Shown here one piece after another: positions 7,607 to 13,575 of a DNA stretch of 64,000 bases. Position 1 is the first letter of the stretch. The number at the start of each line of letters is the position of its first letter. A model generated the notes under the pieces. That model searched no databases. It worked only from the letters and a program-made list of their open reading frames with translations, and had not been told where the DNA came from. Both the position numbers and the translations under genes were made by a program. The stretch is from Methanoplanus endosymbiosus (GTDB taxonomy: Archaea; Halobacteriota; Methanomicrobia; Methanomicrobiales; Methanomicrobiaceae): contig NZ_CP096115.1 of NCBI RefSeq assembly GCF_024662215.1, positions 1,054,001 to 1,118,000 on the forward strand. The letters run 5' to 3'.

Positions 7607-8584
7607 ATGAGAACCAAAAAAATAATATTAAATCCTGAAATATCCACCCGAAATAAAAAAGGGAGTATCCACAAATTGAAACCAGAATATAAAATAATTA
7701 TACCGGCACTAATCCTCACAGTGCTCATAATCACCGCAGGATGCACAGAAAACCCAAAGAAAACAAAACCGGAAGGTGAAAATTCCGGCATGGAAGATAA
7801 CAGCATACTACTCTTTGTAACCATACCACCACAAAAAGAGATGGCAGAGGCCGTCGGCGGAGATTACGTAACAGTAAAAACACTTGTTCCGCCCGGTGCA
7901 GACCCGCATTCATACGAACCCTCCCCCGGAACACTTCAGGAGATGTCAGTTGCGGATGCCTGTGCAATCGTTGGATCAGGCCTTGAAACTGAGAAAAACT
8001 GGCTTGACAAGATAACCGGACTTAACCCGGACCTAAAGATAATCAACTGTTCTTCCGGAGTGAAATTCATAAGATCAGATGAAGACGCTGACAATAAAGA
8101 AGGCTATACAGACCCACACATCTGGCTCTCGGTCTCAAACGGAAAAATAATGACAGAAAACATAAAAGAGGGCCTCATTGAGATAAAACCGGAACTCAGA
8201 GCAGAATTTGAGTCACAGACTCAGGATTACCTCAGCCGCCTTGACACCTTAAACTCTGAAATAGCAGATAAACTGAAAGAGAGAAGGGGCGAATACATAC
8301 TCGTCTATCATCCTGCATGGAGATATTTTGCAGAAGAATACGGCCTTAACACCATAGCAATTGAAAAAGACGGAAAAGAGCCGACACCGGCCGGAATAAA
8401 ATCAGTGATAGACCAGGCAGAAGAATACAACATAAATACAGTTCTCATATCACCACAGTTTAACAGAAAAAGTGCCGAAGTCATCGCAGAAGAGACAGGC
8501 AGCAGGGTTATGACAGTGGACCCGTTAAAGGAAGACTACATTGAAAACCTGAGAAATACAGCCGAAGTATTTTCAGAGGCATAA
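7607..8584 (+). CDS. Metal ABC transporter substrate-binding lipoprotein (ZnuA-like)
   Basis: 325 residues. A hydrophobic signal ends in I-I-T-A-G-C (lipobox Cys about residue 46). The cluster A-1 solute-binding fold shows the metal-binding histidines in A-D-P-H-S-Y-E-P, Y-T-D-P-H-I-W and Y-H-P-A-W-R-Y-F and an aspartate in V-D-P-L-K-E-D-Y. This family binds Zn2+ or Mn2+; there is no His-rich loop to argue strongly for zinc. GAGGG six bases ahead supports this ATG, although a TTG at 7676 would give a more typical signal length. First gene of a three-gene operon with the ATPase and permease. Confidence 0.92.
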   Translation: MRTKKIILNPEISTRNKKGSIHKLKPEYKIIIPALILTVLIITAGCTENPKKTKPEGENSGMEDNSILLFVTIPPQKEMAEAVGGDYVTVKTLVPPGADPHSYEPSPGTLQEMSVADACAIVGSGLETEKNWLDKITGLNPDLKIINCSSGVKFIRSDEDADNKEGYTDPHIWLSVSNGKIMTENIKEGLIEIKPELRAEFESQTQDYLSRLDTLNSEIADKLKERRGEYILVYHPAWRYFAEEYGLNTIAIEKDGKEPTPAGIKSVIDQAEEYNINTVLISPQFNRKSAEVIAEETGSRVMTVDPLKEDYIENLRNTAEVFSEA

Positions 8585-8587
8585 CAG

Positions 8588-9403
8588 ATGAAAGAACCGG
8601 CAATTGAGATAAATAACCTCACAGTTATGGGCGGAGGGCATCCCCTCCTTGACAGTATAAACCTCACTATAAACAGAGGTGAATTCCACGCAGTAATCGG
8701 GCCAAACGGCGGTGGGAAAACAACACTGTTAAAGGTCATACTCGGCCTGATAAAGCCAGACTCAGGCTCTGTAAAAGTATTCGGCAAAACTCCGGAGGAG
8801 AACCGCAGCCTTATCGGCTATGTCCCGCAGTTTCGGACATTTGAATTCGGATACCCCATATCTGTCATGGAGATGGTCCTCTCCGGAAGAATGGGCCATA
8901 TAAAAGGAATCAGAAAAACCTACAGGGAAGAGGACATAAAAATTGCAAGAGAATCCATCGAAATTCTCGGCATTGAAGACCTCGCAGAGAGAAATCTCTC
9001 AGAACTTTCCGGCGGGGAACAGCAGAGGACAATAATCGCAAGGGCACTTGCAGGAAAACCTGAAATGCTGCTTTTGGACGAACCGACAGTCTATGTTGAC
9101 ACCCCAACAAACAGAATGTTCTTTAAAATGCTTGAAGAACTCCACGACATGATGACAATCCTCCTTGTAACACACGACATAGGAGTTATCTCATCCAATA
9201 TTGACTATGTCGGATGCCTCAACAGAAAACTCTACACCCATCATACAAACCAGATCTCCCAGGACATGCTGGACTCTGCATACAAATGTCCGGTTGAACT
9301 CATAGCACACGGCATTCCGCACAGGGTATTTGAAGAGCATGATGAACGGGACAACTACACCGGCAGTAAAAATTCCGGTTCAGACCTGAAAAAAGAGAGA
9401 TAA
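8588..9403 (+). CDS. Metal ABC transporter ATP-binding protein (ZnuC-like)
   Basis: 271 residues. Walker A GPNGGGKTT (38-46), signature L-S-G-G-E-Q-Q-R, Walker B M-L-L-L-D-E-P-T, and the H-loop histidine in L-L-V-T-H-D-I-G. The glycine-rich Walker A form is typical of Zn/Mn importers. It starts 3 bp after the binding-protein gene. The C-terminal tail (Y-T-G-S-K-N-S-G and Lys-rich end) is hydrophilic and not conserved in the family. It energises the permease encoded next. Confidence 0.93.
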   Translation: MKEPAIEINNLTVMGGGHPLLDSINLTINRGEFHAVIGPNGGGKTTLLKVILGLIKPDSGSVKVFGKTPEENRSLIGYVPQFRTFEFGYPISVMEMVLSGRMGHIKGIRKTYREEDIKIARESIEILGIEDLAERNLSELSGGEQQRTIIARALAGKPEMLLLDEPTVYVDTPTNRMFFKMLEELHDMMTILLVTHDIGVISSNIDYVGCLNRKLYTHHTNQISQDMLDSAYKCPVELIAHGIPHRVFEEHDERDNYTGSKNSGSDLKKER

Positions 9404-9445
9404 TTATGAGAAAAACTGAATCATTCAGAAATAGGTGAAATTCCC

Positions 9446-10267
9446 ATGCTTGAAATATTTGCATATGAATTTTTAAGAAATGCACTCATAGCCGGAGTTC
9501 TGGCAAGCATAATCTGCGGCATCACCGGGACATTTGTAATAGTTAAGAAGATGGTATCACTCTCAGGAGGCATATCACACGCCGCATTCGGAGGCATAGG
9601 CATAGGCTACTTCTTCGGCTTTGAACCTATCGCAGGAGCGGCACTCTTCAGCCTTGCAACCGCCGGCGGAATAAACTATATCAGAAAGAAAGCCGGAGAA
9701 AACCTGGACACACTTGTTGGTGCTGTATGGGCAGGAGGCATGGCACTCGGAATAATGCTCATATATATGACCCCCGGCTACGCACCCGGACTTATGACAT
9801 ATCTCTTTGGAAATATACTGCTTGTGCCGGAATCTGACATCATCCTCACCGGAATTCTGGCAATTGCAGTGATAATTATTGTATCCTTCTTCTTTAACCA
9901 GATGGTGGCAGTAACCTTTGACGAGGAGTATGCAACCGTAATGAACATCAGCACTGACCGCTTTATGCTCCTTTTACTCTGCATAATCGCACTCACCGTA
10001 GTTGTGCTCATACAGATCGTCGGCATAATACTTGTAATCGCACTTCTGACACTTCCGGCAGCGATAGCCCACAGGTATGCCTCCAACATAAAAAAAATGA
10101 TGATACTCTCTGCCATACTCGGAGCAGTATTCACAACAACGGGCATACTCATATCATATTACCTTGATGTCCCTTCAGGTGCTGCAATAATTCTGCTAAG
10201 CTCAGCGGCATACCTGAGTGTGATCGCCAAAAGCAGCTTTAAAATGAGAAAAAACGGCCCAGTATAA
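9446..10267 (+). CDS. Metal ABC transporter permease (ZnuB-like)
   Basis: 273 residues with about eight predicted membrane helices, matching the ABC-3 family: the N-terminal F-L-R-N-A-L-I-A-G-V-L-A-S-I-I-C-G-I and V-S-L-S-G-G-I-S-H-A-A-F-G-G-I-G motifs are diagnostic. An AGGTGA Shine-Dalgarno-like element precedes the ATG. Together with the two genes before it this makes a complete Zn2+/Mn2+ importer. No regulator or operator is visible nearby. Confidence 0.92.
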   Translation: MLEIFAYEFLRNALIAGVLASIICGITGTFVIVKKMVSLSGGISHAAFGGIGIGYFFGFEPIAGAALFSLATAGGINYIRKKAGENLDTLVGAVWAGGMALGIMLIYMTPGYAPGLMTYLFGNILLVPESDIILTGILAIAVIIIVSFFFNQMVAVTFDEEYATVMNISTDRFMLLLLCIIALTVVVLIQIVGIILVIALLTLPAAIAHRYASNIKKMMILSAILGAVFTTTGILISYYLDVPSGAAIILLSSAAYLSVIAKSSFKMRKNGPV

Positions 10268-10330: not shown

Positions 10331-11524
10331 TCAGTGCCCATAAGTCTCCTTTAACTCATCAGAGACAATCTCTCCCCATTTAATCCTCTCCCATTCACCA
10401 TCCGTTACAGTGAGAACATCATATGCAGGATATATGTCGCCGTTTTCATCAAAATGACGCGGCCCGCAGAGACCGAGATACCTGATCTCCTTTAATGAAT
10501 CCTTAATCTCACCGGCATCATAACCGCCATCTGCAATAGCTTCGGAGAGAATCTTTGTGGTGTCATAACCATAGGGAACAGGCCAGTTAATCACATCATT
10601 TCCGTATTTCTCATAATACCGCTCTTCAAAAGCATCAGAATGAATCTGACTGGACTGCATCGTTGCAGTAAGACCCTCTGAATAGTCACCGATCTCCTCA
10701 ATGAGGCCGTCATTGATAAGCCCTTCAGAGCCAAACCAGACTGCATCAACCTCAGCATCCTCAGCAGCCTTCAGGATATTTACCGCCTGTTCATAGTATC
10801 CGATCAGAATTATGCCGTCGGGATCTGCTCCCTTAATCTTCTCTATAAGAGCACTGAAATCGTATATATTTGGATCAAAACTCTCAACCAGAATGAAATG
10901 ACCGCCATACTTCGGATATGTCTCAAATACAGAATCACTGAGGCCGGCCCCATAGTCATCATCAGAGTAAATGAGAGCCACGCGGTTTAATTCCGGATGG
11001 AGCACTGAGAGCAGTTTTCCAATACCCCGCCCCTGATATTTATCGGACGAGATTGTCCGGAAGACATAATTTTTGTAATCCGAAAGGGCCGGATTTGTGG
11101 CTGACGGTGAGATTAAAACAATACCTCTCTCCTCTGCTATCGGTGCAATTGCCACCGTTGCAGTACTTGAAACAGCACCGATAACCGCAGGAATTCCTTC
11201 ATCCGCATAATAATTAATTGCCCACTTGCTCATATAGGGATTGCCAATATTGTCAAAATAGTCAATTTCAACCATCTTCCCGGATATCCCGCCCCCACCA
11301 TTTATCTCATCAACGGCCATATCAATGCCCTGCTTAAATTCCTGACCATAATTTGAGAGCGAACCTGAAAGCGGCAGAATTGCCCCTATAACAATCTCAT
11401 CCGGATAATCCCCAGGCTCAATTATCAGTATATCATAAGCAGAGAAGAAGACAACCAGCCCTACAATTATCAGGCCGGCTATATTTACAGGAGTCAGAAT
11501 CTCACATATATTTCCGGGCTTCAT
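10331..11524 (-). CDS. Membrane-anchored type-1 periplasmic-binding-fold protein
   Basis: 397 residues. A single N-terminal hydrophobic helix (about 14-32) lacks a clear cleavage or lipobox site, so it probably anchors the protein. The rest is a Peripla_BP_6 (LivJ / receptor-ligand) fold: I-V-I-G-A-I-L-P-L-S-G-S-L-S-N-Y-G and G-A-V-S-S-T-A-T-V-A-I-A-P-I-A. Such domains bind amino acids, amides or other small ligands. No branched-chain amino-acid permease or ATPase is nearby. Its ATG overlaps the stop of the upstream Nramp-like/5TMR-LYT gene by 4 nt (11521-11524), so the two are translationally coupled and probably act together. Confidence 0.88.
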   Translation of the reverse strand: MKPGNICEILTPVNIAGLIIVGLVVFFSAYDILIIEPGDYPDEIVIGAILPLSGSLSNYGQEFKQGIDMAVDEINGGGGISGKMVEIDYFDNIGNPYMSKWAINYYADEGIPAVIGAVSSTATVAIAPIAEERGIVLISPSATNPALSDYKNYVFRTISSDKYQGRGIGKLLSVLHPELNRVALIYSDDDYGAGLSDSVFETYPKYGGHFILVESFDPNIYDFSALIEKIKGADPDGIILIGYYEQAVNILKAAEDAEVDAVWFGSEGLINDGLIEEIGDYSEGLTATMQSSQIHSDAFEERYYEKYGNDVINWPVPYGYDTTKILSEAIADGGYDAGEIKDSLKEIRYLGLCGPRHFDENGDIYPAYDVLTVTDGEWERIKWGEIVSDELKETYGH

Positions 11525-13575
11525 TTATCCGCCTCTCTGGAACTGTCATCTATGTCAGAAGAACCTGTTTCTTTCTCTTCATCAGTCCGGGACTTATTTT
11601 CCCCTTCTGCACCGCTTTTACGTAAATTCAGCCTGCACATAAGATACGATCTCTTCTCTTCAGCAGAAACCCCATCCTGCAAAGAATCTTCACTGATTTT
11701 TCCGGAATATTTCTTATAAAATCTTTCATACAGGAGTTCACGGCCCTGATCACTGAGGATATATACAAATATGAGAAGCCCGACCGTATTTGCAAGAACC
11801 ATTGACGGAAATGCCGCAACAACCACACCGACATACTGTTCAAATGTAATCCCTTCAGTTAACAGCGGCAGAAGCACGAGAATATGAACACTTTCAATAA
11901 TAATGCCAAGAATTATTGCATGATAATAGGTAAGCCTGCCCCTGGTCCATCTTATATATAATCCGGCTATAATTCCGGCAGCAACAGTCCCGGCAAAGCA
12001 GGCAGTGGCAGTCCAGCCGCCTGACGAATACCTGTAAAGTCCGCCGATCAGACCTGCAAGCCCGCCTACCAGAGGGCCACCTAAAAGTCCGGCAATGGCA
12101 GGCCCTGTATCCCTGAAATTGATGATAAGACCGTCAAACGGAATACCACGATATGTACCATAGACGGATATCGCACCAAAAATTGCTACAGCCCAGATTT
12201 TATCGAGATAATCAGCCCGCCCGTCAAGAAACTTCTGAAACATATCAGTCTTTGAAAAGGCATAGATAACAAACCCAATAACAAGAAGCCTCTCAATGAG
12301 CGGCAGGCCAAATGTCAGAAGGCTTGACTCAAGAATCATTGCGACATACAAAAATACAATACTGCCTGCACCTGTGATAAGAATCCATAATCTGCCCCCA
12401 CGGGCATATTCAGGCAGTTTAAGATCGAGATATATTATCATAAAGCCAAGAATGCCAAACATCACCGAGGCAAATGCAGCAGTATGATGCACAAGAGCCA
12501 CCGGATCAAAGAGTAACATTGCAGTAAGAATAATGCCGGTAAAGATGAGCAGGCAGATCCTGTAGATCACCTTTTCACTGCTCTTCACCGGGGTTGAATC
12601 TTTAATTATATGTGAGATCGCCCTTGCACGCCCGTCCATACCTGAAAGGGTTGCACCAAACATGATCAGATATCCGGAGAGAAGAAAGATCACAATACCA
12701 TATGGGATATATGCAAGGACATAGAGCACCTGCGATACCATACTGTCAATTGTTATCGCCTCGCCGTGGCCAAGATATGAGACAGCAAAGCCACTGACCC
12801 CAAGGGTCATATAAAGAAATGTAATAATCCCCACAATTGTGAATGCAATGCAGAGATCGAGATTGATACTCTTTAAAAACCGCTTATAATTTATCTCCTC
12901 AGAAGTGCTTTCCATCTTCTCATGCAGCCATGTAGAATATAAAAGAAGGTTTAATCCCGAACCCACAGCACCCATCATAGCCATAATGGCAATGACTGAG
13001 CCTTCCGGAATATCAGGCTTAAACCCTTCAATTATTGCACCATAAGGAAGTGAAAACTCAAAGAGACAGTACATTATCGCGACAAAGAGACCAAGAACAA
13101 GGAAGATTACGAGCTTTTCAACCCGCTCATATGAGTCCTTCCAGAGCAGGAAGAGAATCAGAACAATAGAAGAGACACCGACAAACCAGGAGGGCCAGAT
13201 TCCCGGAATCAGGTAGTCCAGAAATATTCCTGCATAGATGAGCATTCCTCCGAATGCGAACATCTCAAGGAAATAAATTATCATTACCAGATATGAACCC
13301 CAGTTGGAAGGACCCGGAAGCCGCCTGAATCCGTCAAATATTGTCTCTCCGGTTGCAAAGGTATAGCGTGCAATTCCGTTTGCAAAAGCAAACTTAAAGA
13401 TAATGGTGAGAATTACGACCCATATCAGTTCAAAACCGAAATGTGCCCCAATCTCAACTGCCTCTGCTATCCCGCTCTCTCCGGCAGCAGCAATTGCTAA
13501 AAGCAGACCGGGACCAAGGAAAATAAAATAATCACGGTATTTTTTGGGTATTTTCTTTATGAACCGTCCAAACAT
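11521..13575 (-). CDS. Nramp-like transporter fused to 5TMR-LYT sensor domain
   Basis: 684 residues. Residues 1-440 resemble Nramp (SLC11): G-P-G-L-L-L-A-I at 21-28 and G-A-H-F-G-F-E-L-I-W at 43-52. However, the TM1 metal motif DPGN is replaced by AGESGI (31-36), and the TM6 M-P-H-N region reads M-G-A-V-G-S-G-L-N (201-209), so a classical Mn/Fe site is not present. Residues about 455-610 are a second module like the 5TMR-LYT domain of LytS: N-F-R-D-T-G-P-A-I-A-G-L-L-G-G-P (486-501), G-L-I-G-G-L-Y-R and A-T-A-C-F-A-G-T. A charged cytoplasmic tail follows. No kinase or cyclase output is attached. The substrate is unknown; with the coupled binding protein it may form a ligand-responsive transporter. 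Confidence 0.82.
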   Translation of the reverse strand: MFGRFIKKIPKKYRDYFIFLGPGLLLAIAAAGESGIAEAVEIGAHFGFELIWVVILTIIFKFAFANGIARYTFATGETIFDGFRRLPGPSNWGSYLVMIIYFLEMFAFGGMLIYAGIFLDYLIPGIWPSWFVGVSSIVLILFLLWKDSYERVEKLVIFLVLGLFVAIMYCLFEFSLPYGAIIEGFKPDIPEGSVIAIMAMMGAVGSGLNLLLYSTWLHEKMESTSEEINYKRFLKSINLDLCIAFTIVGIITFLYMTLGVSGFAVSYLGHGEAITIDSMVSQVLYVLAYIPYGIVIFLLSGYLIMFGATLSGMDGRARAISHIIKDSTPVKSSEKVIYRICLLIFTGIILTAMLLFDPVALVHHTAAFASVMFGILGFMIIYLDLKLPEYARGGRLWILITGAGSIVFLYVAMILESSLLTFGLPLIERLLVIGFVIYAFSKTDMFQKFLDGRADYLDKIWAVAIFGAISVYGTYRGIPFDGLIINFRDTGPAIAGLLGGPLVGGLAGLIGGLYRYSSGGWTATACFAGTVAAGIIAGLYIRWTRGRLTYYHAIILGIIIESVHILVLLPLLTEGITFEQYVGVVVAAFPSMVLANTVGLLIFVYILSDQGRELLYERFYKKYSGKISEDSLQDGVSAEEKRSYLMCRLNLRKSGAEGENKSRTDEEKETGSSDIDDSSREADK

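Follow-up and report, generated by a model that had tools for sequence, protein, structure and literature searches.

An Nramp-related 5TMR fusion protein and its amino-acid-type binding protein: a possible new kind of transporter in methane-making archaea

We analyzed a 64,000-nucleotide stretch of the Methanoplanus endosymbiosus genome (the window; contig NZ_CP096115.1, positions 1,054,001–1,118,000). In it, two overlapping genes, here called A and B, encode an Nramp-related membrane protein fused to a 5TMR-LYT domain and a membrane-anchored binding protein, respectively. The pair may represent a new kind of binding-protein-fed transporter in methane-making archaea. Its features are as follows, with the supporting evidence in parentheses.

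11521–13575, minus strand: gene A, Nramp-related LeuT-fold domain plus 5TMR-LYT domain, 684 amino acids (open reading frame (ORF) list, Pfam, AlphaFold2 model)
10331–11524, minus strand: gene B, membrane-anchored LIVBP-like binding protein, 397 amino acids (ORF list, Pfam, match to solved relatives)
11521–11524, minus strand: 4-nucleotide overlap between the stop of A and the start of B (identical in 16 of 34 A–B loci)
12310–13515, minus strand: Nramp-fold part of A, residues 21–422, the range matched to DraNramp (structure comparison with 6c3i_A)
13462–13482, minus strand: motif G32-E-S-G-I-A-E38 in transmembrane helix 1 (TM1) of A, replacing DPGN (alignments)
12949–12963, minus strand: motif G205-S-G-L-N209 in TM6 of A, replacing MPH (alignments)
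11749–12246, minus strand: 5TMR-LYT domain of A, residues 444–609 (PF07694, E value 1.1e-38)
12112–12120, minus strand: N486-F-R488 of A, the NxR motif of 5TMR domains, equivalent to BtsS N70–R72 (alignment)
11998–12033, minus strand: R515 to C526 of A, equivalents of BtsS R99 and C110 (alignment)
11420–11488, minus strand: N-terminal hydrophobic anchor of B, about residues 13–35 (sequence; helix in the model of the homologous locus L095)
10400–11398, minus strand: ligand-binding domain of B, residues 43–375 (Peripla_BP_6, E value 2.3e-46)
Within the ligand-binding domain of B, minus strand: S120, T143 and E267, equivalents of LivJ S79, T102 and E226 (alignment)

Domains and putative binding sites of A and B

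Pfam assigns two domains to A, Nramp (PF01566, residues 36–349, E value 3.1e-22) and 5TM-5TMR_LYT (PF07694). The protein is 91% identical to its counterpart in a sister genome and 38–59% identical across the order; the two genes are thus conserved and are not chance ORFs. An AlphaFold2 model of A (mean predicted local distance difference test score (pLDDT) 83.2; predicted template modeling score (pTM) 0.72) has the Nramp (LeuT) fold, with residues 21–422 superimposing on DraNramp at a Z score of 41.2 and a root-mean-square deviation of 2.6 over 379 residues. TM6 is broken at 203/207 in this model, and the closest solved relative of A by sequence is a bacterial Nramp. In the Foldseek list, amino-acid carriers of the same superfold rank after the Nramps, which indicates a common fold only. 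The VIA list of the structure comparison covers residues 11–422 of the model and is silent on the 5TMR part.

The original prediction, made from the DNA letters alone, described a transporter-like domain without the DPGN and MPH metal ligands, and this is what we observed. Aligned with solved Nramps (the solved chain displayed being an M230A mutant), A has G32-E-S-G35 for DPGN and S206-G-L208 for M-P-H. In a family alignment of 51 rows, the window included, positions 32 and 35, canonically Asp and Asn, show nothing but Gly in the 50 rows with a letter there. E33 is Glu in 48 of 51 rows, E38 is Glu in 49 and N209 is Asn in 49; position 206 is Ser in 45, Ala in 5 and Gly in 1. None of these rows thus carries the canonical SLC11 signature of DPGN in TM1 and MPH in TM6. 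The site also fits neither the NRAT pattern (DxxN-AxxT) nor the NRMT pattern (DxxG-TxxA/T), the TM1 Asp, which has been termed universally conserved among SLC11 proteins (PMC8806188), being absent from every row with a letter. By its PF01566 match and diverged metal site, A belongs with the “Nramp-related” (“orphan”) proteins. Seven lone Nramp relatives from the same order likewise lack DPGN and MPH and so cannot serve as a canonical control. Because the Nramp domain is complete, with a broken TM6 and near-invariant residues at the LeuT-fold site, this part of A is not decaying.

The PF07694 match bears out the predicted fusion to a LytS-type five-helix sensor domain. That the C-terminal part is an ordinary Nramp extension can be rejected on the strength of this match and of the same domain preceding SpoIIE in another protein of the window’s genome. 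Pfam detected no kinase, cyclase, phosphatase or methyl-accepting chemotaxis protein output domain in the A chain. In the pyruvate sensor BtsS, the pyruvate-binding residues are R72, R99, C110 and S113 (PMC10653868); the corresponding places in the window’s A are R488, R515, C526 and G529. Across 47 A rows, the window included, these places hold Arg in 29, Arg in 42, Cys in 35 and Ser in 6, respectively. Pyruvate was considered as the 5TMR ligand, three of the four residues being kept in the window; since the R72 and S113 equivalents vary across the family, it is only a lead, and the same alignment-based caution applies to a keto acid in general. Chains with one Nramp part and two or three 5TMR copies also occur among the sibling A proteins without B (L136:5828-9208 in G438, L058, L061, L080 and L081; 845–1167 amino acids). 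L080 and L081 have an additional conserved tail of ~290 residues with no family match; by eye it resembled a degenerate histidine kinase, a candidate that we do not put forward, Pfam, NCBIfam and PDB sequence searches having returned no kinase match.

B has one hydrophobic segment, near residues 13–35, and its closest solved relatives by sequence are branched-chain amino-acid receptors. A pattern search found no lipobox in B; in three members a Cys follows “LSSG”. We mapped the ligand site on Escherichia coli LivJ and LivK and compared 31 B rows. LivJ Y18, S79, T102, D121, Y150, Y202 and E226, which we take to hold the amino and carboxyl groups of the ligand, correspond to Y59, S120, T143, D161, Y191, Y243 and E267 of the window’s B. 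Ser at position 120, Asp at 161 and Tyr at 191 each occur in 30 of 31 rows, and Thr at 143 in all 31. Position 267 is Asp or Glu throughout, position 59 is Tyr or Phe in 30 rows, and Tyr at 243 is found in only 12. Judged from these residues, B carries an amino-acid-type binding site on a Peripla_BP_6 fold. Other orphan Peripla_BP_6 proteins were also seen (L142:3295-5580, L144:2331-4562 and L143:4246-6323; own genome): two are large and lipoprotein-like (761 and 743 amino acids, the first with two such domains), and the third is lipoprotein-like and is followed by a small membrane protein.

Distribution of the fusion and conservation of the gene pair

Of 199 genomes from the order, the window’s own included, at least 47 have a match that covers both parts of A at a single place, so that the fusion is no single-genome oddity. 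Among 392 genomes of the phylum, the matches listed contain one fusion genome outside the order (G438), whose protein has three 5TMR copies and 1126 amino acids. An alignment-based scan of genome contigs, resting on two short patterns, returned 36 loci, all from Methanomicrobiales; a query with a single protein returned none.

A conserved gene pair had been predicted, and it was found. In 34 of 60 loci examined, B adjoins A in the same orientation. In this set, B is cut at the contig end in L012 and L063, has a broken frame in L050 and L040, and precedes A in L057. The remaining loci comprise 20 A genes without B, of which 16 are full-length and 4 are split or partial, five Nramp-like genes without 5TMR, and the 5TMR–SpoIIE gene of the window’s genome. 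In a 57-row tree, all 35 A proteins that are linked to B, the window’s among them, group in one clade (support 100/99), and the B label changes once, compared with a mean of 17.8 after shuffling. These proteins come from three families (f1, f5 and f6), and their neighborhoods differ: several f1 genera have a convergent metal-type ATP-binding cassette (ABC) operon, one genus has a PAS-HATPase gene, and f6 has other contexts. The single clade and the differing neighborhoods together indicate that the pair travels as a unit, with a binding-protein gene stably coupled to a membrane protein of secondary-carrier type.

In the window, the neighbor of B at 7607–10267 is, by reading of the ORF list, a metal-type ABC set (binding protein, ATPase and permease) that converges on B; this operon holds the same position in several related genera. 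Seven f6 loci (L045, L047, L063, L064, L065, L068 and L078) have a second binding-protein-type gene divergent to A–B. Its product is Bmp/PnrA-like (PF02608) in the three scanned and N-terminally anchored, and no PF02653 permease was found in the three such genomes checked (G024, G048 and G098). Elsewhere, lone Nramp-like proteins of 416–420 amino acids without 5TMR (L085–L089) adjoin a conserved anchored protein with WEEH-type repeats, and in two Methanocalculus-type loci (L082 and L083) A is divided into two ORFs inside the Nramp part, through a frame error or a real split.

Permease, receptor and Nramp content was counted in 22 of the 35 A–B genomes. PF02653, the family of LivHM permeases, was over its cut-off in none of the 22 (one sub-threshold match), versus 12 of 14 control genomes, which leads us to reject the idea that B serves a Liv-type ABC importer. 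The window’s genome has no LivHM-type permease, in agreement with the earlier description of B as a membrane-tethered receptor-fold protein without an ABC partner, whose gene overlaps A by 4 nucleotides. PF13458 matches at no place other than B in 15 of the 22 genomes, and the PF01566 matches in all 22 (26 places) are A-type fusions only.

Transport or signaling

We consider it about an even chance (roughly 0.48) that A and B together form an uptake system in which a binding protein feeds a LeuT-fold carrier, the solute being an amino acid or something similar and the 5TMR domain being regulatory. B, anchored outside the membrane, would capture an α-amino acid or close analogue and deliver it to A, whose Nramp-related LeuT-fold domain would then move the solute inward as a secondary transporter, a mode of energy coupling that we infer. 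The S-component-like 5TMR domain could bind either the substrate or another small ligand and tune the carrier. An organic substrate is not far-fetched for A, because PxpT, an Nramp-family protein, is needed for 5-oxoproline use (PMC13274462). Modeling of a complex had been proposed with the original prediction, and one locus lent itself to it: in L095, A and B are naturally in frame, and a model of the read-through chain (1047 residues, pLDDT 83.5) reached a pTM of 0.77. About 345 of its ordered residues come from B, and a pTM near 0.6 was estimated for the case that B is unplaced relative to A. The model thereby suggests that B docks on A. More tentatively, at odds that we put clearly below even, A–B would be the first case of a secondary transporter that depends on a binding protein and uses the LeuT (rocking-bundle) fold in place of an elevator; its S-component-fold domain would serve as an integral sensor of a second ligand.

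Several points weigh against this uptake system. In the AlphaFold2 model, TM1 of A is unbroken from 22 to 46, and canonical Nramps differ in this respect. Four paired rows underlie the L095 model, which lacks a control. A REC-HisKA_2-HATPase gene precedes a sibling A that lacks B in five loci (L059, L062, L066, L067 and L072). The 5TMR domain is a sensor domain elsewhere (PMC11109136). Finally, every carrier for which use of a binding protein has been reported is an elevator (PMC12344293), which A, a LeuT-fold protein, is not.

The kinase neighbors and the sensory nature of 5TMR lend themselves to another, rather unlikely explanation, that of a transceptor: loaded B would dock on A, a carrier fold that does not carry, and a signal would pass through 5TMR to another protein in the cytosol, for instance a histidine kinase. 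Transporter–kinase transceptors such as CbrA exist (PMC13022988, PMC7096432). A divergent PAS-HATPase gene accompanies the pair at six loci of one B-linked genus (L012, L039, L041, L042, L043 and L050); of the 11 kinase-like neighbors in the two groups, L059, L062 and L039 were scanned with Pfam and the rest were assigned by clustering. The window’s genome, moreover, is rich in kinases (53 HATPase_c places) and has 43 places that match PF00072. However, among 13 B-linked Methanocorpusculum-type (f6) genomes (G024, G048, G070 and others), two of them less than 90% complete, the response-regulator domain PF00072 is absent from 11 and present once each in G054 and G094, so that two-component output is dispensable for A–B. 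HATPase_c occurs there at 3–5 places per genome, 47 in total; 12 of these look like GyrB or Topo VI-B, judging from their N-termini, and the remaining 35 include one place in G094 (E value 5e-23) that may be a kinase. These counts make it less likely that A–B in general depends on a kinase output. A itself lacks a cytosolic output domain in Pfam, and its putative carrier-site residues are near-invariant. The pair persists in genomes nearly devoid of two-component proteins, which tips the balance toward a transporter rather than a sensor: a transport role is the reading that fits all B-linked genomes, and a sensor role is plausible for the sibling A proteins without B. The original prediction had offered a ligand-gated transporter or a sensor without classical output; the transporter side is favored, with ligand gating as a hypothetical feature.

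Import of a divalent metal by A, with 5TMR adding sensing, is the role published for the fusion; with B acting separately or binding a metal complex, we regard it as improbable for A–B. It would accord with A being the only kind of Nramp-family protein in the 22 genomes, with the convergent metal-type ABC set, with E33, which could bind a cation, and with YcsG, a relative of PxpT and an Nramp-family protein of a 5-oxoproline operon, which has been called a Mn importer (PMC10448178). Nevertheless, the TM1 Asp is replaced by Gly and the Asn and Met positions are lost too, and B is of amino-acid type and never missing from its clade. Least probable of all is that 5TMR, rather than the Nramp part, accepts the ligand of B in a pocket like that of S-components, the Nramp domain then being a motor or scaffold: 5TMR has the S-component fold (PMC11109136), the window’s 5TMR gives a weak, below-cut-off match to ECF-ribofla_trS (E value 1.2e-5), one to three copies follow a single Nramp domain, and the BtsS pocket is represented in the window by N-x-R, R and C, but it varies in B-linked members (the R72 equivalent is Arg in 18 of 30) and the Nramp site residues are stricter.

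Comparison with known systems

The fusion by itself is not new, a correction to the original prediction. An NRAMP-like/5TMR fusion in archaea was reported in 2024 in Commun Biol, with a proposed link between ion transport and sensing and a role in metal homeostasis (PMC11109136). The architecture is the same, with 5TMR C-terminal, and the proteins are almost certainly those called A here; the portion of that paper covered makes no mention of a binding-protein partner or of lost metal ligands. Motif loss is likewise already known for “Nramp-related” proteins (PMC12873925, PMC10606218). Among the papers listed by searches on Nramp with 5TMR, on receptor-fed secondary carriers, and on methanogen Nramp with substrate-binding proteins, we found no report of the A–B pair. 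New, as far as these searches show, are the conserved pairing of A with B, the amino-acid-type site of B without LivHM, the A-type protein as the only Nramp, and the dispensability of response regulators. B gives the published, unexplained fusion a partner and argues against a metal role.

Within the Nramp fold, NRMT (EleNRMT) has altered DPGN and MPH sites like A, but keeps the TM1 Asp. PxpT and YcsG share the fold, PxpT with a non-metal substrate. For neither NRMT nor PxpT/YcsG was a 5TMR fusion or a binding-protein pairing reported in the parts of the literature covered. LytS-type BtsS shares 5TMR and the N-x-R, R and C of its pyruvate pocket with the window’s A, but carries the domain N-terminal to a kinase, whereas in A it is C-terminal, has no output and has Gly at the S113 equivalent (PMC10653868). 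The SLC5-STAC histidine kinases such as CbrA combine a LeuT-fold transporter domain with a sensory part, as A does (PMC13022988, PMC7096432); A comes from another carrier family, has no kinase in its chain by Pfam, and has a binding protein. With LivJ and LivK, the LIVBP/HAAT receptors of ABC importers, B has in common a profile-based fold assignment and the residues of the amino-acid site; it differs in being membrane-anchored and linked to A, with no LivHM permease over cut-off in the 22 genomes.

By analogy, the closest functional model for A–B is TAXI-GltS, described in 2025 (PMC12344293). Like TRAP and TTT, it has a binding protein without ABC genes that is translationally coupled to a protein of secondary-carrier type; its amino-acid ligand has been demonstrated, whereas that of A–B is predicted. 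The membrane parts of TRAP, TTT and, by the model of the TAXI-GltS authors, GltS are elevators, whereas A, as judged from sequence and model, is a LeuT-fold protein with 5TMR. The same authors noted that further carrier classes would test whether an elevator is needed (PMC12344293). A conserved amino-acid-type receptor that lacks an ABC permease and is linked to a LeuT-fold protein offers a test of this kind; if our reading of A–B as an uptake system is true, a receptor-fed carrier would not require an elevator.

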